Positions 18,713 through 35,960 of a stretch of 64,000 nt of DNA are shown piece after piece (the stretch's first letter is position 1; each line of letters opens with the position of its first letter). Where the stretch lies: positions 1-64,000 of IMG/VR virus record IMGVR_UViG_3300044713_000107; one strand, 5' to 3'. The stretch is from a virus. The notes beneath the pieces are model-generated. The model made no database searches and was not told the DNA's origin. It was given only the letters and a program-made list of their open reading frames with translations. A program made the position numbers and the translations under genes.

Positions 18713-19152
18713 CGCCTGCCCCCGATGCTGAAGCTGGAGTTGTCGCCGATCTTTACGTTGGAGATCCGGATGCCGCCCGCCACCTTGAGGGCGACGATCG
18801 CGACTGCGGCGAGCGCCACGGCGATGCTGATCGCGACGACGGCGTGCTCGGCCATGCTCAACCCCTTGAAGAAGACCCACGATCCGCACTCGACGAGCGC
18901 CAGGCCGGCGCACCAGCAGAACCCCATGAAGCCGCATCCGTGCATGCGCGCGGGCAGCGGGTCGTAGGCGGGAAGCGGCTGGGGTTCGGGGTCGGGCTGG
19001 TAGTAGGCGATGCCGTTGGCGTCGTGGAGGACGCGGACACGGGCCGGGGCCGGGATGAGCGGCTGCGGCGTGTAGACGGCCGGGGTGCTGGTGGGCTGCG
19101 GGTCTTCGTACGCGGCCCAGTCGAAGACCTCCTCGCTGCGGTGGTGCTGCAT
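18709..19152 (-). CDS. Spd-like small membrane protein
   Basis: A 147-residue protein: a Pro/Tyr-rich soluble N-terminus, two hydrophobic segments (GFMGFCWCAGLALVECGSWV and AEHAVVAISIAVALAAVAIV), then a short tail GDNSSFSIGGRR. ATG 19152 overlaps the stop of the FtsK/Tra gene (TGATG), so it is made with that ATPase. By position it resembles Streptomyces plasmid spread proteins, inferred not proven. Confidence 0.55.
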   Translation of the reverse strand: MQHHRSEEVFDWAAYEDPQPTSTPAVYTPQPLIPAPARVRVLHDANGIAYYQPDPEPQPLPAYDPLPARMHGCGFMGFCWCAGLALVECGSWVFFKGLSMAEHAVVAISIAVALAAVAIVALKVAGGIRISNVKIGDNSSFSIGGRR

Positions 19153-21299
19153 CACTGCTCCTGGATGTGGTCGGTGTGGATGTAGTTGGTGCGCTCCCCG
19201 CCCGGCTGCACGATCTTCGGCTCGGCCTTCAGCCACGTGGTGACGGTCTGCCGGGACGGCGCCTTCGCGTTCGGGAACACCGCGCGGAAGGTGTCGAGGA
19301 TGCCCTCGGGGTTGATGCCTTCCGGGCCGGAGGAGCGGACGATGCCGTAGACCTGGGGCCAGCGGTCGTCGCTGCTGATGCCGGGGGTGGGCGAGTTCGG
19401 ACTGGCTGCGGGCGCGGGGGTGTCGTCAGTGGGGGGCGTCCAGACGCCACCGGCGCCTTCGACGATGTCGCGGAACTGGCGCTCCAGGTCGGCGTCACGG
19501 CTGGCGTTCTCGTCCATCGTCTGGTGCAAGTCCCGCTTCGCCGCATCCGCCTGGTCGATCACAGACTGCGCCTCGGGAGCCAGCGGCCCGGCCTCCGGCT
19601 TGCCCCAGTCGGCGGTGACGCTACGGCGGCGCTCGGGCCGATCCCCGACGATGCTCGTCAGGCCTTCCTCAACTGGGAACGGCGCGGAGCCGAGGCCGAA
19701 GAGGTGGTCCGTGTTCTCCCACCGCTTCTCGTAGGCGTCGCCTGCGGCTTTGCGGGACAGGTCGTCAAGGTCGGGGTGGCGGTCGCTGGTGGCCTTCACG
19801 ATGTCGGCGATCTGGTTCGGCAGCATCCGGTACGCCTTGAACGGCCGCGCGGGCTCGTCCAGGATCTTCACGAAGCCGCACCCGGGGTAGGGGGCGTCGT
19901 CGGTGCTGATCCGGTCGGACCAGCCGAACAGGTACGACATCTCCCGCTCGTCGGACTTCATGCCGATCTTCAGGCCGGACTGGGCCAGCAACTGCGGCTC
20001 GCTGATCACATCCTGCGTGGCGCGCAGCGCGGTGATGAGCGCGTTCACGGCAACGGCGCGGGCGAGCTCGACGACCTGGATGAGGGTGTCGCCGGTCTCC
20101 TTCAGGATCTCGTTCTTGCGGGCCTTCGGGGAGAAGATCTCCGCGATCTCATCGCCGACGATCATGATGCCGGGGACTGCGGCGCACACCGGCAGCTTGT
20201 CGTCGTTCGCCTCCAACTCCAGGTGCTTGTAACCCGGCTTGCGGGCCTTCGCGATCCGCAGCGCGGCCTTCGCCATCGCCAACGCCTTCGCCGGAGTGTC
20301 CGCAACCCAGTCGATCGGCGGCTTACCCGGGCGCCCGGCCTTCTCCCACGCGTGCAGCCACGCCAGCGCGAGACCACCGCCGTTGAGGTCGATCACCCAC
20401 GTGATGTTGTCGGTCATGCGGACCAGGCCCGCGACCTCCACGTTCGACAGGTTCGTCTTCCCGGAGCCCTTACGTCCGGCCATGAGCGTCGACAGCTGCC
20501 GCAGTGACGGAGCAACGCGCGCACCGTCCCGGTACACGCCCATCGGCAGGCCGTCGTTCAAAGACAGCGGCGAGTAGTCCGCCGGGTAGGGCTCATCCCC
20601 GGCGAGCCGGTTCACGGTCGCCACGTTGATCAGCACAGCACCGCGGTGCGCACCCGGGCCGACCTCAACCCCGCAGCCCTCGGGCAGCTTCGCGTCGGCG
20701 GCGAGGCCGTCCTCGAACGCCTTGAAGTCACGCCACTTCGTGCCGTTGGAGCACTCCCCATCGAGGGTGAACCCGCCGCCGGACTCCCACTGCTCAACGC
20801 CGACGATCTGCACGGTCGCACTGGTGCACACCCGGGTCAGACGCTCGGTCCACTCGTCGGCGACCGCGCGCCGCTTGGCGTCCATGCTGGCCGCACGCTC
20901 AATCGCCTCGAAGCGGGCCCGTTCGTCGGCCTTCACCTCCTCGTGGTGGCGTGCGCCCTCGATCGCGGCACCGAGACCGATGCCGCCTGCGATCAGCGCG
21001 CCAATCGCCTTGCCCGTCCAGGGACCTTCAACGGTCGCCCACGAGCACCAGCCGCCGACACCCAGCCACGTGGCGGCACGCATGATCAGGGCTGAGCGGG
21101 GGATCCGCTTCTTCCGTCCGGCATACATGCTGCCGACCAGTCCGGCGCCAGCAGCACCGGCGAGCCAGCCGGGGCCGAGGTGGGCAAGGTGGTGATGGGC
21201 GAGTTCGTAGTCGGCCCAGGCAAGCGTGAGGCTCGTCCAGGTGGCGTTGATGGGGCCGGCGACGGGGCCGTGTCCGGCGTCCCAATCGATGTGCACCAC
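19152..21299 (-). CDS. FtsK/SpoIIIE-type DNA translocase (Tra-like)
   Basis: A 715-residue ATPase. N-terminal hydrophobic segments near 45-60 and 75-115 are followed by the motor: Walker A AGRKGSGKT at 274-282, WVIDLNGGG, Walker B GIMIVGDE at 377-384 and an arginine-finger region LITALRATQDV. The last 75 residues look like a winged helix. The layout resembles TraB/TraSA proteins of Streptomyces plasmids, which move double-stranded DNA between mycelial compartments. It lies with DUF2637 and Spd-like genes. GTG 21299 is the start, with AAAGGA 11 nt upstream. Confidence 0.85.
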   Translation of the reverse strand: MVHIDWDAGHGPVAGPINATWTSLTLAWADYELAHHHLAHLGPGWLAGAAGAGLVGSMYAGRKKRIPRSALIMRAATWLGVGGWCSWATVEGPWTGKAIGALIAGGIGLGAAIEGARHHEEVKADERARFEAIERAASMDAKRRAVADEWTERLTRVCTSATVQIVGVEQWESGGGFTLDGECSNGTKWRDFKAFEDGLAADAKLPEGCGVEVGPGAHRGAVLINVATVNRLAGDEPYPADYSPLSLNDGLPMGVYRDGARVAPSLRQLSTLMAGRKGSGKTNLSNVEVAGLVRMTDNITWVIDLNGGGLALAWLHAWEKAGRPGKPPIDWVADTPAKALAMAKAALRIAKARKPGYKHLELEANDDKLPVCAAVPGIMIVGDEIAEIFSPKARKNEILKETGDTLIQVVELARAVAVNALITALRATQDVISEPQLLAQSGLKIGMKSDEREMSYLFGWSDRISTDDAPYPGCGFVKILDEPARPFKAYRMLPNQIADIVKATSDRHPDLDDLSRKAAGDAYEKRWENTDHLFGLGSAPFPVEEGLTSIVGDRPERRRSVTADWGKPEAGPLAPEAQSVIDQADAAKRDLHQTMDENASRDADLERQFRDIVEGAGGVWTPPTDDTPAPAASPNSPTPGISSDDRWPQVYGIVRSSGPEGINPEGILDTFRAVFPNAKAPSRQTVTTWLKAEPKIVQPGGERTNYIHTDHIQEQ

Positions 21300-27517: not shown

Positions 27518-28510
27518 TCAACCTCCAACTATCAGGGACAGGCCCGCGGGGCGCTCCCGCAAGGCTTCGATGCGACCGACGTAGTCGGCCACGGACTTGG
27601 CCAGCTGGCGCAGGTCTTCCATCTGGCGCTCGTCGGCGCCGGCCGCGACCTGTTCCGGGGTGAACATCCCGATCAGGCCGAAGGAACGGGCGAGCTCCTT
27701 CTGGAAGTTGTGCTGCCACTGCTTGCGACGGATCTCCTCGGCGGCGCCGGAGGATTCGAGGTAGTCGCGGACAGGGGCGACCAGGGCGTCGGCTTCGGCC
27801 TGCTTGACCTTCTTGAAGGCCGGGTCGACCTTGCCGGTGCGGTCCATCACGGCCTGGGCCTCGCGAGCGGCTTCGCGCACCGGCTCGGGTGCCTCCAGGT
27901 CGCGGGCGGCCTCGACGACATGCCGGGCCTTCTCCAGGGTCCGGCCGGACATGCCAGTTGCCTTGGCGATCTGATCCCGAGTCTTCAGCGACGGCTTCGG
28001 TGCTTCGGCGGCAACGACGCTCGGTGGAAAATTTCCACCGAGCGTCGACTTGGCTTCTGGCTCGACGGCGACGAGTACGGGTGCTTCTGGATCGGCGGCT
28101 AGGCGCGCCTTTGCGGCTTGGGGGCCGCCGGCGCGCTGGCCCGCCAGGCGGCGTTCGGCTGCGCGCTGCTCCTCAATGCCGCGGATCCGCTCGGCGTGCT
28201 CAACCGCCTCGGTGGGCGTGAATGCCTCGCGCTCGGTGTTCTCTTCGCCCTCGGCGAGCAGGGCCTCCAGTTCGTCGGCGAGAGACCCGGCGACGTGGGC
28301 GTCGATCGTGTCGCGGCCGAGTAGCCGGTGGGCTTCGATGCGCCGACCGCCAGCGACGAGGGCGTAGCCGCCGCCGTCGGGCCGGACGACGATCGGCTGG
28401 AGAAGCCCTCGCTCTTTGATGGATTTTGCAAGGGAATCGATGTTGCGCATCTCCTGGCGCGCCCTGTCGCCAATGGTGATGCGGTCGAGGGATATGGCGT
28501 TGACGATCAA
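27518..28510 (-). CDS. ParB-like partition/regulatory protein
   Basis: A 330-residue protein with the ParB N-terminal domain: IDSLAKSIKERGLLQPIVVR, AGGRRIEAHRLLG (53-65) and ENTEREAFTPTEAVEHAERI (90-109). An HTH-like segment lies at about 180-205 (TRDQIAKATGMSGRTLEKAR), with a helical C-terminus. ATP/CTP-dependent parS-binding proteins have this layout. TTG 28510 with GGAGG 7 nt upstream is the likely start. No ParA gene is visible. A perfect 33-bp palindrome lies in its linker-coding part. Confidence 0.8.
   Translation of the reverse strand: MIVNAISLDRITIGDRARQEMRNIDSLAKSIKERGLLQPIVVRPDGGGYALVAGGRRIEAHRLLGRDTIDAHVAGSLADELEALLAEGEENTEREAFTPTEAVEHAERIRGIEEQRAAERRLAGQRAGGPQAAKARLAADPEAPVLVAVEPEAKSTLGGNFPPSVVAAEAPKPSLKTRDQIAKATGMSGRTLEKARHVVEAARDLEAPEPVREAAREAQAVMDRTGKVDPAFKKVKQAEADALVAPVRDYLESSGAAEEIRRKQWQHNFQKELARSFGLIGMFTPEQVAAGADERQMEDLRQLAKSVADYVGRIEALRERPAGLSLIVGG
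28015..28047. repeat. Perfect 33-bp palindrome inside parB
   Basis: Arms of 16 bp (CGACGCTCGGTGGAAA, 28015-28030, and its exact complement, 28032-28047) flank a single A at 28031. It lies in codons of about residues 155-166 of the ParB-like protein, in the linker between the nuclease-like and HTH domains. Its A/T-rich centre and symmetry resemble a partition site. The canonical GTTTCACGTGAAAC parS was not found. Confidence 0.85.
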
Positions 28511-28667
28511 GAGCGGACCTCCGCAGACGTCTGACCGATACTCACTATGAGTGAACGACTGGGGGATGCGCAAAGAGCCCGAGGCTGACGTGCTATGGAG
28601 TCCCGAATGGTGTGACTTTCCGGGCGCGCTGACGGCCCTTCAAGTCACACGCAGTTGCGACGCTCGC
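28511..28667 (-). promoter_or_regulatory. Leader and probable promoter region of parB
   Basis: About 160 nt without a gene upstream of parB. It contains an inverted repeat TCACT/AGTGA at 28542-28554 and more A/T than its surroundings, so an autoregulated promoter is plausible. No certain -35/-10 pair. Confidence 0.35.
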
Positions 28668-29166: not shown

Positions 29167-29763
29167 CTACCCCTCAGCCTCGGGCGGCTCCGGCGGGACC
29201 TGCCGCGGACGGCCACCGACACCACGCTGCACGCCAGGAGTGCGCCCACGGTTGCGGGAGATGCGCGCGCTGAGCTCCTCGGTCACCTTGTGCGACGGGT
29301 CCGGCTCCTTGGTGGCCCGATACTTCCGCAGACCCGGTGCCCTTGACGTGGTCTGAAAGTCGTTCCATACCGCGCCGTCGTCATCAGCGGGCAAGTCGAG
29401 CGGCTGCTCGGCGAGGGCCCACGACCAGGCGAGGTCGGCGCTCACGCTGCCGTGGCCGGTGATCTCGATGTCGCTGTTGGGGTCGGCAGTCGGGGGCAGG
29501 AGTAGCGCGACCGGACTGACGCGGAGTGCGACGGCCAGCGCCATCAGGTCGTCGACGTCGACCTTTCGGGCTCGGGACTCGATGCGGCTGATCGCGCTGG
29601 GGGCGATCGGCCGGCCTGCGGCGGCGAGCAGCTTGGAGAGGTCGTAGGTCGACAGACCGCGGACTTCTCGTAGGGATACGAGGTTCCTCGCGACTGCCTG
29701 ACCTGTGGGTCCGACCTCGTTGGTCTTGCGCGTTGCCTTCTCGCGCGCTTCGTCCGCTGCCAT
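29167..29763 (-). CDS. XRE-family repressor (candidate immunity repressor)
   Basis: A 198-residue protein with an N-terminal XRE HTH at about 26-85 (VARNLVSLREVRGLSTYDLS, KLLAAAGRPIAPSAISRIES, VDDLMALAVALRVSPVALLL). The C-terminal half is less ordered and ends basic/Pro-rich. It diverges from the excisionase-like gene that opens the 12.6-kb plus operon, with a palindrome between them. The arrangement resembles a phage switch; repressor of the early operon is the inferred role. Confidence 0.75.
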   Translation of the reverse strand: MAADEAREKATRKTNEVGPTGQAVARNLVSLREVRGLSTYDLSKLLAAAGRPIAPSAISRIESRARKVDVDDLMALAVALRVSPVALLLPPTADPNSDIEITGHGSVSADLAWSWALAEQPLDLPADDDGAVWNDFQTTSRAPGLRKYRATKEPDPSHKVTEELSARISRNRGRTPGVQRGVGGRPRQVPPEPPEAEG

Positions 29764-29824
29764 GTCCGCAGCATCCCATGTCTATGTGCCCGCGCCTATC
29801 GACACGGGCCGCCATCCACGTATA

Positions 29825-29843
29825 TGCTGCGTAATAAGCAGCA
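29825..29843. promoter_or_regulatory. Operator-like palindrome in the switch region
   Basis: TGCTGC and GCAGCA (29825-29830, 29838-29843) flank the A/T-rich centre GTAATAA in the 105-nt gap between the XRE repressor (minus) and excisionase-like gene (plus). TATATG just upstream may belong to a promoter. It is a good candidate binding site for the XRE protein. Confidence 0.6.
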
Positions 29844-29868
29844 CACACCATCAAGGAAAAGGCATGTG

Positions 29869-30093
29869 ATGTTGGAACTGGCGCGTCCCCTCAGGGACGA
29901 CGAGCTGCTGACCCCCATCGAGGTCAGCAAAATGACCAAGCTCGCCCTGCGCACCCTCGCCGACAAGCGATGGAAGGGAACGGGCCCCGACTACATCAAG
30001 CTCAGCCCCGGCAGGAACGGCCACGTGCGTTACTGGCGCAGCGCCGTCCTTGCGTGGCTGAACGAACACGACGACCTCGCGGACGCAGCATGA
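29869..30093 (+). CDS. Excisionase/MerR-like HTH protein (Cro/Xis position)
   Basis: A 74-residue protein with a winged helix: LLTPIEVSKMTKLALRTLAD, then KRWKGTGPDYIKL and the HVRYWRSAVLAWLNEH wing, the pattern of helix-turn-helix excisionase-like proteins. ATG 29869 has AAGGAAAAGG upstream. It is the first gene of the early plus operon and may act as Cro-like regulator rather than a true Xis, since no integrase is seen. Its stop overlaps the next start (ATGA). Confidence 0.7.
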   Translation: MLELARPLRDDELLTPIEVSKMTKLALRTLADKRWKGTGPDYIKLSPGRNGHVRYWRSAVLAWLNEHDDLADAA

Positions 30094-30771: not shown

Positions 30772-31224
30772 ATGGTGGCATACGACGAACGATCCGTCAG
30801 CCCCACACCGGAGCACGGAACCGAGCAGGCCATCGACGCCGCCGCGCTCCAGCTCGCCCGTGAGATCCGCGCCTACGCCCAGGCGAACCCCCAGCACGGG
30901 ATCCCCGCCGGGCAGCGCCTCACCGTCGCGCAGACGCTGGCGTTCGACTCCCTGATCCCGCTCCTCGTCGCGGTCCACGACCAGCTCGACGACATCTTCC
31001 CCGGCGCCAAGACGCAGCTGGAGCGGAAGCGGGACGTGCTGCTGAACATGCTGACGACGTACATGCTGCCCGAGCTGTTGAACGCGTCCGCCGAGGCCGC
31101 CACAGGCGAGAAGCCGGACCACAACCGCATCCACACCGCGGTGTACGGCGACGTCGACAGCCTCTTCGACTTCGTGCTGCACCGCGCCAACGACGCCGTC
31201 CGCGAAGCCAAGCGAACCGTCTAA
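30772..31224 (+). CDS. Hypothetical helical protein
   Basis: A 150-residue protein, mostly helical: IDAAALQLAREIRAYAQANP, AFDSLIPLLVAVHDQLDDIF, KRDVLLNMLTTYMLPELLNA, SLFDFVLHRANDAVREAKRT. ATG 30772 with GAAGGGATG upstream is chosen over TTG 30754. Function unknown. Confidence 0.6.
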   Translation: MVAYDERSVSPTPEHGTEQAIDAAALQLAREIRAYAQANPQHGIPAGQRLTVAQTLAFDSLIPLLVAVHDQLDDIFPGAKTQLERKRDVLLNMLTTYMLPELLNASAEAATGEKPDHNRIHTAVYGDVDSLFDFVLHRANDAVREAKRTV

Positions 31225-31281
31225 CCCACAAGCTCCCTGCGCCGCCCGGTGCAGGGCCGCCACAACCCTTAGGAGCACGTC

Positions 31282-31488
31282 ATGTCCAACGTCACCGCGA
31301 TCCCCGTTCCGGACCGCAAGACGTTCCTCGTCGAGCAGATCGACGACACCCACACCGTCACCACCATCCCCGGGTTCGGCGGCTGGGGCACCTGGTACGA
31401 GGTCTGGGACGTCACGAAGGGCCGCACCATCGGCGGTGCCAACCGGCGCCACCTCGTCCCGGCACTGATCGCCCGCACCGCCGCCTGA
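31282..31488 (+). CDS. Small beta-rich hypothetical protein
   Basis: A 68-residue protein beginning MSNVTAIPVPDRKTFLVEQI, with a Trp/Tyr/Gly-rich centre (GFGGWGTWYEVWDVTKGRTI). ATG 31282 follows TTAGGAGCACGTC. Ends just before a hairpin. Function unknown. Confidence 0.55.
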   Translation: MSNVTAIPVPDRKTFLVEQIDDTHTVTTIPGFGGWGTWYEVWDVTKGRTIGGANRRHLVPALIARTAA

Positions 31489-31497
31489 CACACCAAA

Positions 31498-31526
31498 GGG
31501 CCGCCCCAGGGAAAGTGGGGCGGCCC
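31498..31526 (+). terminator. Hairpin upstream of the replication initiator
   Basis: A perfect 11-bp stem (GGGCCGCCCCA 31498-31508 and its complement 31516-31526) with loop GGGAAAG, 43 nt before the initiator start. It may be an attenuator controlling initiator synthesis. Confidence 0.6.
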
Positions 31527-31568
31527 ACACCAACCGTACCGCCACGCACAGGAGTCGGAGTAGGACAC

Positions 31569-32450
31569 GTGGGCGACAGCGACGCCGGACAGCCATCCGG
31601 CAAGAAGCGCGCAGAGACGCGCTACTGCCGTGTCCCGCAGTGGCTCTACAGCGCTGGCGTCTCACTCCAGGCCATCGCCGCATACGGCTGGCTGCACGGC
31701 CGCTACGGATTCCTGCCCGTGATCAACCCGTCGTACGCGACGCTCGCCGAGGAGCTCCACTGCAGCCGCGGCAGTGTCATCACCTACCTGAAAGAGCTGG
31801 TCCGGGTCGGTGCGATCCGCATCAACGTGGGCGGCCCGAAGGGTCGAACGATCAACACCTACGAGATCGCGTTCGACGCTCCGTTCCCCGTAAGTGGTCA
31901 GTCGGCTGACCACTTGAAGGGTGCCGAGAGCTCCCAAGTGGTCAGCGGGCTGACCACTACTGGTCAGCCCGCTGACCAGAGCCCCGGTCAAAGTGGTCAG
32001 CGGGCTGTACCCGAAGAAGAAGTAGTTAAGAACGGGAAGACTCTCTCTGCTCGCATGCCCCGTCAGCCCCAGCCGTCTCCCGCTCCAGTCGAGAGAGAGA
32101 CGGTTGCTTCGCAGGACAAGCTGACGACCGCGCAGCGGATCGTTCGCACTGCCGCCGTCGTAGCCGAAGCAGACGAAGACACGTTCATCGCCTGGGTGCG
32201 CGCCAAGCACCCGCCAGCCGGCCCGCAGTTCTGGCGCAAGGTCTCCGCCCAGGGCGATCTGCCCGAGCTCGTCGAGGCCTGGCGCGCCGACCAGCCTTCC
32301 CGGCCCACGCTGTCGCTCATTCCCGACTGGTGCGGCCACTGCAACCGCGGCCAGCAGCCCGCCAGCATCGCCGAACGCATCAACGAGACAACCGACGGCC
32401 GCATCGAACAGTGCCGGGCCTGCCACCCGGCCCGACGTGCCGCCGCCTGA
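31569..32450 (+). CDS. Replication initiator with internal origin
   Basis: A 293-residue protein. An N-terminal winged helix (YCRVPQWLYSAGVSLQAIAA, SYATLAEELHCSRGSVITYL, KELVRVGAIRI) binds DNA in phage replication initiators. A flexible middle at 108-160 is encoded by the palindrome array at 31892-32010. The C-terminal part has FIAWVRAKHPPAGPQFWRKV and a Zn ribbon (WCGHCNRGQQ, EQCRACH). DnaB helicase follows. This copies the lambda O/P logic: initiator carrying its own origin, then helicase function. GTG 31569 follows GGAGTAGGACAC; homology to lambda O itself is not claimed. Confidence 0.75.
   Translation: MGDSDAGQPSGKKRAETRYCRVPQWLYSAGVSLQAIAAYGWLHGRYGFLPVINPSYATLAEELHCSRGSVITYLKELVRVGAIRINVGGPKGRTINTYEIAFDAPFPVSGQSADHLKGAESSQVVSGLTTTGQPADQSPGQSGQRAVPEEEVVKNGKTLSARMPRQPQPSPAPVERETVASQDKLTTAQRIVRTAAVVAEADEDTFIAWVRAKHPPAGPQFWRKVSAQGDLPELVEAWRADQPSRPTLSLIPDWCGHCNRGQQPASIAERINETTDGRIEQCRACHPARRAAA
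31892..32045. other. Putative replication origin (palindrome array)
   Basis: Three palindromes of core TGGTCAG-N4-CTGACCA lie at 31892-31915 (AAGTGGTCAG/CTGACCACTT, perfect), 31936-31959 and 31959-31980, plus a half-degenerate fourth at 31991-32010. Centres are 44, 22 and 33 bp apart, multiples of 11. A purine-rich, A/T-richer stretch (GAAGAAGAAGTAGTTAAGAA) follows at about 32015, like a DNA-unwinding element. Origin function is inferred from location in the initiator gene and helical phasing. Confidence 0.75.
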
Positions 32451-32460
32451 AAGGACCCCC

Positions 32461-33819
32461 GTGCAGACCGCACCCGACCCGTTCGACGACCTCGTAGACG
32501 AGCCCGAGCCCGATCCGATCCTCGACGCCGAGCAGGCTGTCCTCGGGTCGATGATGCTCGACCGCGACACCATCCCCGACGTCAACGCGATCCTCGCTCC
32601 GCGCGACCACTCCCGTCCGGCGCACACCACGATCCACGAGGCCGTCAATGCCCTGTTCCAGCGCGGCGAGCCGTGTGACCCGATCACCGTCACCCGGGAA
32701 CTCATGGCCCGTGGCGATCTCGCCCGCGTCGGCGGAGCGTCCTACGTTCACGGCTGCGTCGAGGCCGTTCCGACGGTCGCGAACGCCGAGTACTACGCCG
32801 AGATGATCCACGAGCGCGGCGTGTTCCGGCGCCTGGAGGCCGCGGGGATCGGCATCGTGCAGCTCGGGCAGCAGCGCCTCGGGAACGCCGTCGAGGCGGT
32901 CGACAAGGCGCAGGCCGAGCTGTTCACCATCGCCGAGGAGCGGGCGAGCGAAGACGTCGTCCCGGTCGGGCAGACGCTCACAATCACGCTGGACGCGATG
33001 GAGGAGCGGCAGAACAGCGACCAGGCGAAGATGCCCGGCGTGCCGACGGGCTTCACCGATCTGGACACGCTGACTGGTGGCCTCCGCGGCGGCCAGATGA
33101 TCGTAGTTGCCGCACGGCCAGCCATGGGCAAGTCCACCGTGGCGCTCGACTTCGCCCGCTCCGCTGCGATCAAGCACGGCATGACGACGGCGTTCTTCTC
33201 GCTGGAGATGGGACGTCAGGAGATCGAGGAGCGTCTCATCTCGGCGCAGTCCCGGGTTGCCCTGCACCACATCCGCCAGGGGACACTCACCGACGACGAC
33301 TGGACCAGGATCGGCCGCCACACTGGCGAGATCCTGGAAGCGCCGCTGCTGCTTGACACCTCGACGAACCTGACCGCTATGGACATCCGGGCGAAGTCCC
33401 GCCGGTTGGCGCAGAAGCACGACCTGAAGCTCGTGATCGTGGACTACCTGCAGCTGATGCAGTCCGGGGGAGCGAAGTCCGAGACGCGGCAGCTCGAAGT
33501 CACTGAGATCAGCCGGAACTTGAAGCTGTTGGCCAAGGAGCTCGACGTTCCCGTGGTCGCCCTGTCGCAGCTGAATCGTGGTCCGGAGCAGCGCGCCGAC
33601 AAGCGGCCGATGGTCTCCGACCTCCGTGAGTCGGGCTCCATCGAGCAGGACGCGGACATGGTCATCCTGTTGCACCGCGAGGACGCCTACGAGAAGGAAT
33701 CCCCCCGCGCCGGCGAGGCCGACCTCATCGTGGCCAAGCACCGCGGCGGCCCCACGGCGACGATCACAGTCGCCGCCGCGCTCCACTATTCGCAGTTCGT
33801 CGACATGGCGCAGAGCTGA
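32461..33819 (+). CDS. Replicative DNA helicase, DnaB-type
   Basis: A 452-residue hexameric helicase. N-terminal DnaB_N domain begins EQAVLGSMMLDRDTIPDV; Walker A is ARPAMGKST (218-226), Walker B is LVIVDYLQLM (324-333), and SQLNRGPEQRADKRPMVSDL with RESGSIEQDAD forms the C-terminal DNA-loop and sensor region. Length equals bacterial DnaB. GTG 32461 follows AAAGGA and lies 10 nt after the initiator stop. It probably unwinds the phage origin. Confidence 0.95.
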   Translation: MQTAPDPFDDLVDEPEPDPILDAEQAVLGSMMLDRDTIPDVNAILAPRDHSRPAHTTIHEAVNALFQRGEPCDPITVTRELMARGDLARVGGASYVHGCVEAVPTVANAEYYAEMIHERGVFRRLEAAGIGIVQLGQQRLGNAVEAVDKAQAELFTIAEERASEDVVPVGQTLTITLDAMEERQNSDQAKMPGVPTGFTDLDTLTGGLRGGQMIVVAARPAMGKSTVALDFARSAAIKHGMTTAFFSLEMGRQEIEERLISAQSRVALHHIRQGTLTDDDWTRIGRHTGEILEAPLLLDTSTNLTAMDIRAKSRRLAQKHDLKLVIVDYLQLMQSGGAKSETRQLEVTEISRNLKLLAKELDVPVVALSQLNRGPEQRADKRPMVSDLRESGSIEQDADMVILLHREDAYEKESPRAGEADLIVAKHRGGPTATITVAAALHYSQFVDMAQS

Positions 33820-33906: not shown

Positions 33907-35040
33907 ATGAGCGATCTGACGCTGACCGACCTGTTCCCGCCCGAGGCGCTTGCCGCCGCGATCGACGCTGGGCACGTGACCCGCAAGCAGCACCCGACAC
34001 TGCCCCTGTCGATCTACACCTACACGCGGGAGTGCCAGTACGGGCACATCTGGACCCCCGTCACGATGCAGTGCCGGGGCCTGATCGCTGACGACGCGTC
34101 GGGGCGCATCGTGGCCCTGCCGTTCCCGAAGATCTTCGTGACGGGCATGCACGGCGTCCACGACTTCGCCCCCGCGCTGCCCGCCGAGCCGTTCGAGATC
34201 TTCGAGAAGGCCGACGGCAGCCTCATCATCCTGTTCCACCACGGCGGGCGCTGGCACGCCGCCTCAAAGGGCTCGTTCATCAGCGAGCAGGCCACCTGGG
34301 CGCAGCAGTTGCTCGACGCCTCCGACCTGACCCGCCTTGACCCGCAGTTCACCTACCTCGCCGAGGCCATCTACCCCGGCAACCGAATCGTCGTTGACTA
34401 CGGCCAGCGCGAGGCCCTGATGCTCCTCGCCGCGTACCGGCCAGCGGACGGCACCGAGGAGCTCCTGTCGACGGTCGCGGCGCACTGGGAGCCGATAGGC
34501 CCGGTCGTGCGCTCCTGGGGTCTGTCGTCGGACATCGCGGTGCTGGAGAAGCTCGCTGCGGAGTCGACCACCGTCGACGGCCAGGAGGTCGGCGGCGTGG
34601 ACGAGGAGGGCTACGTCATCCGCTTCCAGTCCGGGCTGCGCGCCAAGGTGAAGCTTGCCGCCTACCTCAAGCTGCACAAGCTGTTCACTGGCACGAACGA
34701 GCGCACCATCTGGGAAGTCCTCGCGTCCGGCCAGGACCCGGCCGTCCTCTTCGACCAGGTCCCCGACGAGTTCGCCGACTGGGCCCGCCAGATCGCGGAC
34801 GGGCTGCACGAGCAGCACCGGCAGCTCCTCGCCGAGGCCACCGCGGACTATGCGGAGGTACTCGCCCAGCTCCCTGCCGGTTGCGACCGCAAGTCGTTCG
34901 CGCTCCTGGCCAAGGAGACCCGGCACCGCTCCGCGCTCTTCCTGCTCGTGGACGGCCGCGTCGACGCGGCGAGCGCCTGGGCGTGGAAGCAGCTCAAGCC
35001 CCGCGGCGACAAGCCGTTCAAGACCGACGAGGAAGGCTGA
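33907..35040 (+). CDS. RNA ligase (T4 Rnl1-like)
   Basis: A 377-residue ATP-dependent RNA ligase. Motif I is EKADGS with adenylated Lys101; motif III-like YLAEAIYPGNRIVVDYG (Glu153); motif IV DEEGYVIRF (232-240); motif V AKVKLAAYLKLH (246-257). Length matches T4 RNA ligase 1 (374). It lies 2 nt upstream of the polynucleotide kinase/phosphatase, recreating the T4 pair that heals and seals tRNA cut by host anticodon nucleases. That anti-defence role is inferred. Confidence 0.9.
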   Translation: MSDLTLTDLFPPEALAAAIDAGHVTRKQHPTLPLSIYTYTRECQYGHIWTPVTMQCRGLIADDASGRIVALPFPKIFVTGMHGVHDFAPALPAEPFEIFEKADGSLIILFHHGGRWHAASKGSFISEQATWAQQLLDASDLTRLDPQFTYLAEAIYPGNRIVVDYGQREALMLLAAYRPADGTEELLSTVAAHWEPIGPVVRSWGLSSDIAVLEKLAAESTTVDGQEVGGVDEEGYVIRFQSGLRAKVKLAAYLKLHKLFTGTNERTIWEVLASGQDPAVLFDQVPDEFADWARQIADGLHEQHRQLLAEATADYAEVLAQLPAGCDRKSFALLAKETRHRSALFLLVDGRVDAASAWAWKQLKPRGDKPFKTDEEG

Positions 35041-35042
35041 CC

Positions 35043-35960
35043 ATGCCCACCATCCACTTCACTACCGGCCTGCCGGCCAGCGGCAAGACCACGTACGCCA
35101 TGGAGCTGTTGCGCCAGTCGAACGGCTCGATGCGCAGGGTCAACCTCGACGACATCCGCGCGATGCTCGACCAGGCCGGCGACACCAAGGTCTGGACGCA
35201 CCGGCACGAGGCGACCGCGCAGGCCGTCCAGGAGGCCGCTGTGCGTGCGGCGGTGAAGGACGGCTTCGACGTGGTCGTCGACAACACCCATCTGACGCCG
35301 CGGATGCCGGGCCGGCTCAAGCAGGTGCTCGGCGAGTTCGACGAGCTGACGTTCGTGGTCCACGACTTCACGGACGTCCCGCTTGCCGAGTGCCTGATCC
35401 GTGACGCGAAGCGGGAGAAGCCGGTGGGGGAGGAGGCGATCCGACGGCTCCACTCCCGGCACGTCTCGGCGACGAAGGGCGGATGGCGGCTCACCCCAGA
35501 GTGGCTCGCCGACCGAGTCCCCGTGCACCCGTACGAGCCAGATGCGTCGCTGCCTGCGGCGGTCATGTGCGACATCGACGGCACCCTCGCACTCCACACC
35601 GACCGCGGCCCTTACGACTTCGACCGCTGCATGAGCGACGGGCTGAACCTGCCGGTGTTCGAGGCCCTGACGATGTACCGGAACTCTGGGCACGCGATCG
35701 TGCTGCTGTCCGGGCGGCAGGAGGAGTATCGGCGGCACACGGAGCAGTGGCTTGCCGAGTTCAAGGTGCCGTACGACGAGCTGTGGATGCGCGGAGTCGG
35801 CGATCGGCGCCGGGACGACATCGTCAAGGCCGAGCTGTTCGACGCGCACGTCCGGGACCGGTTCAACGTCCGGGTGAGCCTCGACGACCGTGACCGTGTC
35901 GTGCGCCTGTGGCGCCGGCTGGGCTTGCCGACGTGGCAGGTCAACTACGGCGACTTCTGA
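35043..35960 (+). CDS. Polynucleotide 5'-kinase/3'-phosphatase (T4 Pnkp-like)
   Basis: A 305-residue bifunctional end-healing enzyme, close to T4 Pnkp (301). Kinase P-loop is GLPASGKTT (9-17), with VNLDDIRAML and VVVDNTHLTP typical of the kinase half. The phosphatase half begins VMCDIDGTLALH (DxDGT at 177-181) and includes LSGRQEEYRRHT and RRRDDIVKAELF. It converts 2',3'-cyclic phosphate and 5'-OH ends to ligatable ends. Coupled to the upstream RNA ligase. Confidence 0.93.
   Translation: MPTIHFTTGLPASGKTTYAMELLRQSNGSMRRVNLDDIRAMLDQAGDTKVWTHRHEATAQAVQEAAVRAAVKDGFDVVVDNTHLTPRMPGRLKQVLGEFDELTFVVHDFTDVPLAECLIRDAKREKPVGEEAIRRLHSRHVSATKGGWRLTPEWLADRVPVHPYEPDASLPAAVMCDIDGTLALHTDRGPYDFDRCMSDGLNLPVFEALTMYRNSGHAIVLLSGRQEEYRRHTEQWLAEFKVPYDELWMRGVGDRRRDDIVKAELFDAHVRDRFNVRVSLDDRDRVVRLWRRLGLPTWQVNYGDF

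Follow-up and report, generated by a model that had tools for sequence, protein, structure and literature searches.

The DNA considered here is a stretch of 64,000 nucleotides (the window), positions 1 to 64,000 of the IMG/VR virus record IMGVR_UViG_3300044713_000107, which runs to 80,846 bp and encodes a portal protein, a terminase and a major head protein. Within it lies a gene for a putative replication initiator whose coding sequence carries an array of palindromes followed by an A+T-rich stretch (Table 1), and the array and its probable role as a replication origin are the subject of this account. The initial annotation of the sequence had placed the array upstream of dnaB, and dnaB is indeed the next gene, its start lying 10 bp past the initiator stop codon. 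An alternative in-frame start of the initiator is possible upstream, at 31515.

The palindrome TGGTCAG-N4-CTGACCA occurs in three exact copies, at 31895–31912, 31939–31956 and 31961–31978, and in a fourth copy at 31994–32011 that has three mismatches, every one of them in the right arm; exact and three-mismatch matching thus recovered the three palindromes and one degenerate copy first described. The four copies together span 31893–32011, all within the coding sequence of the initiator, and 17 nt of the fourth iteron (31991–32007) are identical to iteron 2. The spacings of 44, 22 and 33 bp given in the initial annotation were found again, both from start to start and from centre to centre. The 7-base half-sites fall on an 11-bp grid (31895, 31906, 31939, 31950, 31961, 31972 and 31994), so that the abutting halves of copies 2 and 3 make a further palindrome. 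The accompanying claim that a bound protein would sit on one face of the helix stood in part: the spacings are multiples of 11 bp, but the sites share a face only if the local helical repeat is near 11, as 99 bp correspond to 9.4 turns at 10.5 bp per turn. The array codes for about residues 109–148 of the initiator and the A+T-rich stretch for residues 149–158. Copies 1, 3 and 4 share one reading frame and copy 2 lies in another; the array is therefore not a peptide repeat, and the use of two frames argues for selection on the DNA rather than on the peptide.

Table 1. Features of the initiator locus and of other parts of the window (positions are those of the window)
Feature	Position	Strand	Remarks
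Initiator gene	31569–32450	+	GTG start, 293 residues; PHROG replication-initiation and O-like matches; Pfam HTH_36 just under cut-off
Winged-helix DNA-binding domain, residues 25–100	31641–31868	+	AlphaFold2 model, predicted local distance difference test (pLDDT) mostly 70–89
Disordered linker, residues 102–183	31872–32117	+	pLDDT below 50; coding DNA holds the array
C-terminal helices (residues 187–241) and C-x2-C ... C-x2-C-H-P motif (residues 255–287)	32127–32429	+	Alignment, AlphaFold2
Iteron 1	31893–31914	none	AGTGGTCAGTCGGCTGACCACT
Iteron 2	31937–31958	none	AGTGGTCAGCGGGCTGACCACT
Iteron 3	31960–31979	none	CTGGTCAGCCCGCTGACCAG
Iteron 4	31991–32011	none	Only left half intact, right arm broken
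Extra palindrome	31948–31969	none	Abutting halves of iterons 2 and 3, on the 11-bp grid
A+T-rich, purine-rich stretch	32013–32042	none	Candidate unwinding element; 40% GC in a 67% GC gene
dnaB-type replicative helicase	32461–33819	+	Pfam DnaB_C E 1.3e-98; DnaB N-terminal domain E 3.8e-28
Repressor-like gene	29167–29763	-	
Excisionase-like gene	29824–30093	+	
Strong hairpin ahead of the initiator	31498–31526		Terminator-like on the minus strand
T4-type RNA ligase	33907–35040		Pfam RNA_lig_T4_1 E 1e-11; phrog_562 E 1e-52
Polynucleotide kinase-phosphatase-like frame	about 35030–35960		By eye only
ParB-like protein gene	27518–28573		Pfam ParB_N E 1.1e-11
FtsK/SpoIIIE-like protein gene	19152–21299		phrog_31069 E 3.5e-89

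The repeats are in clear excess over chance. With at most three mismatches allowed, eight matches to the palindrome were found in the window against a mean of 3.15 in dinucleotide-preserving shuffles, none of 100 of which reached eight, and all three exact copies fall inside 84 bp, with no further exact copy in the whole 80.8-kb record. For the initiator gene the shuffles exchanged synonymous codons; here 13 short-loop inverted repeats were counted against 0.66 in the shuffles (0 of 200 reached 13), and the 34 repeat pairs of the gene compare with 0.64 on average in 1000 shuffles, where the highest count was 6. A scan of the sequence collection with a stricter form of the palindrome yielded 44 stretches, each with a single site and hence no other array of the TGGTCAG-N4-CTGACCA type, and no double site was found in 394 genomes of the genus of G001. 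A two-mismatch copy at 29921–29938, in the excisionase-like gene, was set aside as a likely chance match.

The purine-rich stretch that had been noted right after the array is real, and it is 60% A+T, which places it among the lowest 0.1% of 30-bp GC windows in the 64 kb. The A+T minimum of the initiator gene lies directly after the array, at gene nt 444. When the lambda O gene was analysed using the same script, its known iterons were recovered with a score of 13, where 1000 synonymous shuffles reached 7 at most; they start at gene nt 349, 369, 393 and 416 (span 349–433), followed by an A+T minimum at nt 444, and in the present phage the sites start at nt 327, 371, 393 and 426 (span 327–443). 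Little should be made of the exact coincidence at nt 444, but the two genes have the same layout. The lambda origin is located in the middle of gene O (PMC7466680), where dimers of the O protein bind 19-bp inverted repeats and open an adjoining A+T-rich region of 40 bp (PMC5043065). The two loci thus share an origin, here a putative one, placed in the initiator gene after the DNA-binding domain and at nearly the same nucleotide position, with four inverted-repeat iterons of 18–19 bp and then an A+T-rich stretch (PMC7466680; PMC5043065), as well as an early operon that diverges from a repressor-like gene. They differ in the iterons themselves, which are unrelated (TGGTCAG-N4-CTGACCA against ATCCCTCAAAACGAGGGA in lambda), in their spacing (44/22/33 against 20/24/23), in the A+T-rich stretch, which is much less A+T-rich here, and in the gene directly downstream, which encodes the phage's own full DnaB helicase instead of a P-type helicase loader.

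The best PHROG match of the initiator was to a generic replication initiation family (E 1.3e-9), followed by O-like families matched with partial coverage (phrog_8540, E 5.4e-6; phrog_391, E 2.3e-5), and a phmmer search of the PDB with the protein gave no match. An AlphaFold2 model was built on a seven-row alignment; its confidence is low overall (mean pLDDT 58), and the trustworthy part is the winged helix, with helices at residues 33–46, 56–63 and 67–79 and a two-strand wing at 83–100. Foldseek matched this domain to winged-helix regulators, none of them in the PDB at E <= 0.001, and weakly to viral helix-turn-helix proteins, one of which is named lambda GpO N-terminal. At the other end of the protein, cysteines 255, 258, 282 and 285 and the motif that contains them are invariant in the seven aligned relatives, and the distant matches of the initiator, mostly C-terminal, come from Streptomyces and Frankia genomes.

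Searches of IMG/VR, of phage and plasmid collections and of GTDB contigs brought up no close relative of the initiator, and DnaB was therefore used to reach related replication modules. A scan of genome contigs for DnaB apparently returned mostly host chromosomal dnaB, so that few phage origins were gained in this way. A strong array, defined as a repeat score of 8 or higher that also exceeds the highest of 40 synonymous shuffles more than 1.5-fold, was present in 42 of the 396 open reading frames (ORFs) of DnaB-linked loci, and most of these 42, classed by eye from their neighbourhoods and not by a blind rule, are a winged-helix replication gene or an ORF that overlaps one in another frame. 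PHROG scans back the replication assignment for many of 24 representatives, 15 of which match phrog_391 (O-like) and 13 phrog_270. The relatives were grouped into 24 protein clusters at 60% identity, in which the array mostly lies at about 0.35–0.6 of the gene and, in many, a low-GC stretch is found at or near it; the lowest-GC 30 bp start between -15 and +75 bp from the array end in 8 of the 24, against 2 at the mirror position before the array. The letters of the arrays differ from gene to gene, with GGTCCGGAnTCCGGACC in L047, GGTGACGT in L053 and L031, TCAGTGTC in L028 and CTAGGGGC in L037. Where an initiator gene precedes a DnaB relative, it usually contains an internal array at the corresponding position, in a sequence peculiar to that gene, and the arrangement is shared, in variant spellings, by many related phages of soil bacteria. 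Another layout than the palindromic arrays is seen in a related replication gene, where a 7-bp repeat, GAGCAGGG, stands in tandem in the linker-coding part (L026:2219–3076, L056:2243–3103 and L015 at about 2918–2953).

The 11-bp spacing remarked on in the initial annotation extends to this group as a tendency; it does not form a strict lattice. With the present window left out, spacings limited to 80 bp or less and multiples of three removed against peptide repeats, the pooled inter-repeat distances peak at a period of 11.0–11.1 bp (R 0.55, a value attained in none of 2000 jittered sets). Taken cluster by cluster, the period of 11 is positive in 17 of 20 other clusters (Wilcoxon p 0.0008, spacings not multiples of three), a period of 10.5 is weaker (p 0.04), and periods of 9, 10, 12 and 13 gave nothing. 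A strict 11-bp lattice for all relatives was tried as well, and fails in some of them. Two half-sites 11 bp apart within the geometry of a site could contribute to a period of 11 rather than 10.5.

Three of these initiators, L010, L012 and L014, show clear similarity along their whole length, and their genes have four sites of about 23 bp each, beginning CGGGT, at corresponding places; the third site has a broken right arm, like copy 4 in the present phage, and an A+T-rich stretch then follows. In both L012 and L014 the recognition helix is PRAAQAHLRE and the sites are of the type GT[A/G]GCA..., and in L010, where the recognition helix reads RSTVLNHLRN, all four sites differ, being GTGCTCAAA or GTGTCAAAT. 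As a single contrast this is suggestive of iterons and recognition helix varying together.

Taken together, the array is very probably a phage replication origin of the lambda-O type, situated within its own initiator gene and bound by the product of that gene. The lambda-O-like origin proposed in the initial annotation gains support from the winged helix, the PHROG matches, the dnaB neighbour, the layout, in which palindromic iterons after the DNA-binding domain precede an A+T-rich stretch as in lambda O, the recurrence in related genes and the phasing at about 11 bp. The winged helix would bind the palindromes as dimers, with one subunit for each 7-bp half-site and the bound half-sites on successive helical turns of about 11 bp; the complex may then bend the DNA and help to melt the adjacent A+T-rich stretch, after which the C-terminal part of the initiator would recruit the phage DnaB encoded directly downstream.

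Several points weigh against this interpretation. Binding by the initiator, melting, loading of DnaB and origin activity at the palindromes are steps that we infer from the sequence and its setting, and the collections searched gave no close relative of the initiator in which these particular palindromes could be compared. The stretch beside the iterons is only moderately A+T-rich, and across the clusters the excess of A+T after the array over that before it is not significant (Wilcoxon p 0.12), the A+T element being a tendency in the related set and clear in this phage. The phasing was scored on repeat pairs, not all of which are independent. The N-terminal domain Phage_rep_O of Pfam was not matched by the initiator, a scan at E 0.1 giving only weak HTH families, and since the neighbour is moreover DnaB and not a P-type loader, membership in the lambda O protein family is not established; the array is best read as working like ori-lambda.

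Another possibility is that the palindromes are operators, bound by the winged-helix protein or by a phage repressor, that control transcription of the early operon and have no part in starting replication. Regulation of their own gene is common among initiators, the fold of this one resembles transcription regulators, and a repressor-like gene is at hand. The sites lie, however, 320 bp into the gene and away from a promoter, a search of 31200–32600 for sigma-70-like promoters gave none (it covers Streptomyces-type promoters poorly), and in initiator genes sites of differing sequence occupy this same position again and again, near A+T-rich DNA, all of which makes the operator explanation improbable.

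Alternatively, strong hairpins formed by the repeats in the mRNA might govern how well the message for initiator and dnaB is translated or how stable it is, and the RNA does fold far better than shuffles (z -8.4). Good folding is, however, expected of any cluster of palindromes; copy 4 keeps its 17 nt of copy 2 and forms no stem on its own, the direct repeats of several relatives have no dyad symmetry, the spacings obey an 11-bp period, and no Rfam family was matched at cut-off, so that such a role is highly unlikely. It is scarcely credible, finally, that the repeats arose as a side effect of local duplication in a linker tolerant of it, or form a peptide repeat, and lack any function at the DNA level. 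The linker is indeed predicted to be disordered, and in some relatives (L009) the repeats are spaced by multiples of three and the peptide they encode is itself repeated, but the dyad symmetry, the two reading frames, the excess over synonymous shuffles and the phasing at about 11 bp that is seen with multiples of three left out speak against it.

A lambda-O-type origin also invites comparison with other replicons. The iteron plasmids (P1 oriR, RK2, pSC101 and others) have helix-phased initiator sites beside an A+T-rich region (PMC5043065); the sites differ here in being palindromes and in lying inside the gene. For oriL of phage P1 the origin has been postulated inside repL, where synonymous changes in A+T-rich sequence impair replication, and the part of that account consulted describes no palindromic iteron array for repL, the comparison resting on its description only (PMC9948254). 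The RepA protein of extrachromosomal mycobacterial prophages is likewise an actinobacterial phage initiator with an N-terminal helix-turn-helix, and its authors suspected that the origin lies either ahead of repA or within it, as in lambda; the regions examined in that study yielded no repeated motifs, and here too the comparison is by description only (PMC7157519). Searches confined to open-access literature gave no account of such arrays as a class in actinobacterial phages. We give an even chance to the broader proposal that self-contained origin cassettes are widespread in these phages, with 11-bp-phased, linker-coding iterons that are rewritten together with the recognition helix, a private code of each lineage that could be read from one gene. 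If the origin reading is true, it would locate to within 150 bp where replication begins in this 80.8-kb phage, so far uncharacterised, and linker-coding repeats in an initiator gene followed by A+T-rich DNA would serve as a simple rule by which origins could be recognised in many phages and prophages of actinobacteria. Paired sets of recognition helices and sites would become available for studying how origin specificity changes, and compact replicons might be developed as tools.

In the wider setting of the locus, the early genes run rightward and diverge from the repressor-like gene, in a lambda-like order, and the repressor-like gene and the excisionase-like gene, a divergent pair, are likely to form the lysogeny switch. 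The GC skew changes sign near 29–30 kb, where the orientation of the genes switches too; it tracks gene orientation and is no guide to the position of the origin. The hairpin listed in Table 1 occupies the intergenic gap ahead of the initiator. Directly downstream of dnaB lies the gene for the RNA ligase, followed by the ORF that looks like a polynucleotide kinase-phosphatase; the two could together repair RNA, as such pairs do in response to defences that cut tRNA. The ParB-like gene may indicate a plasmid-like prophage, and the phage genome also encodes the FtsK/SpoIIIE-like protein.
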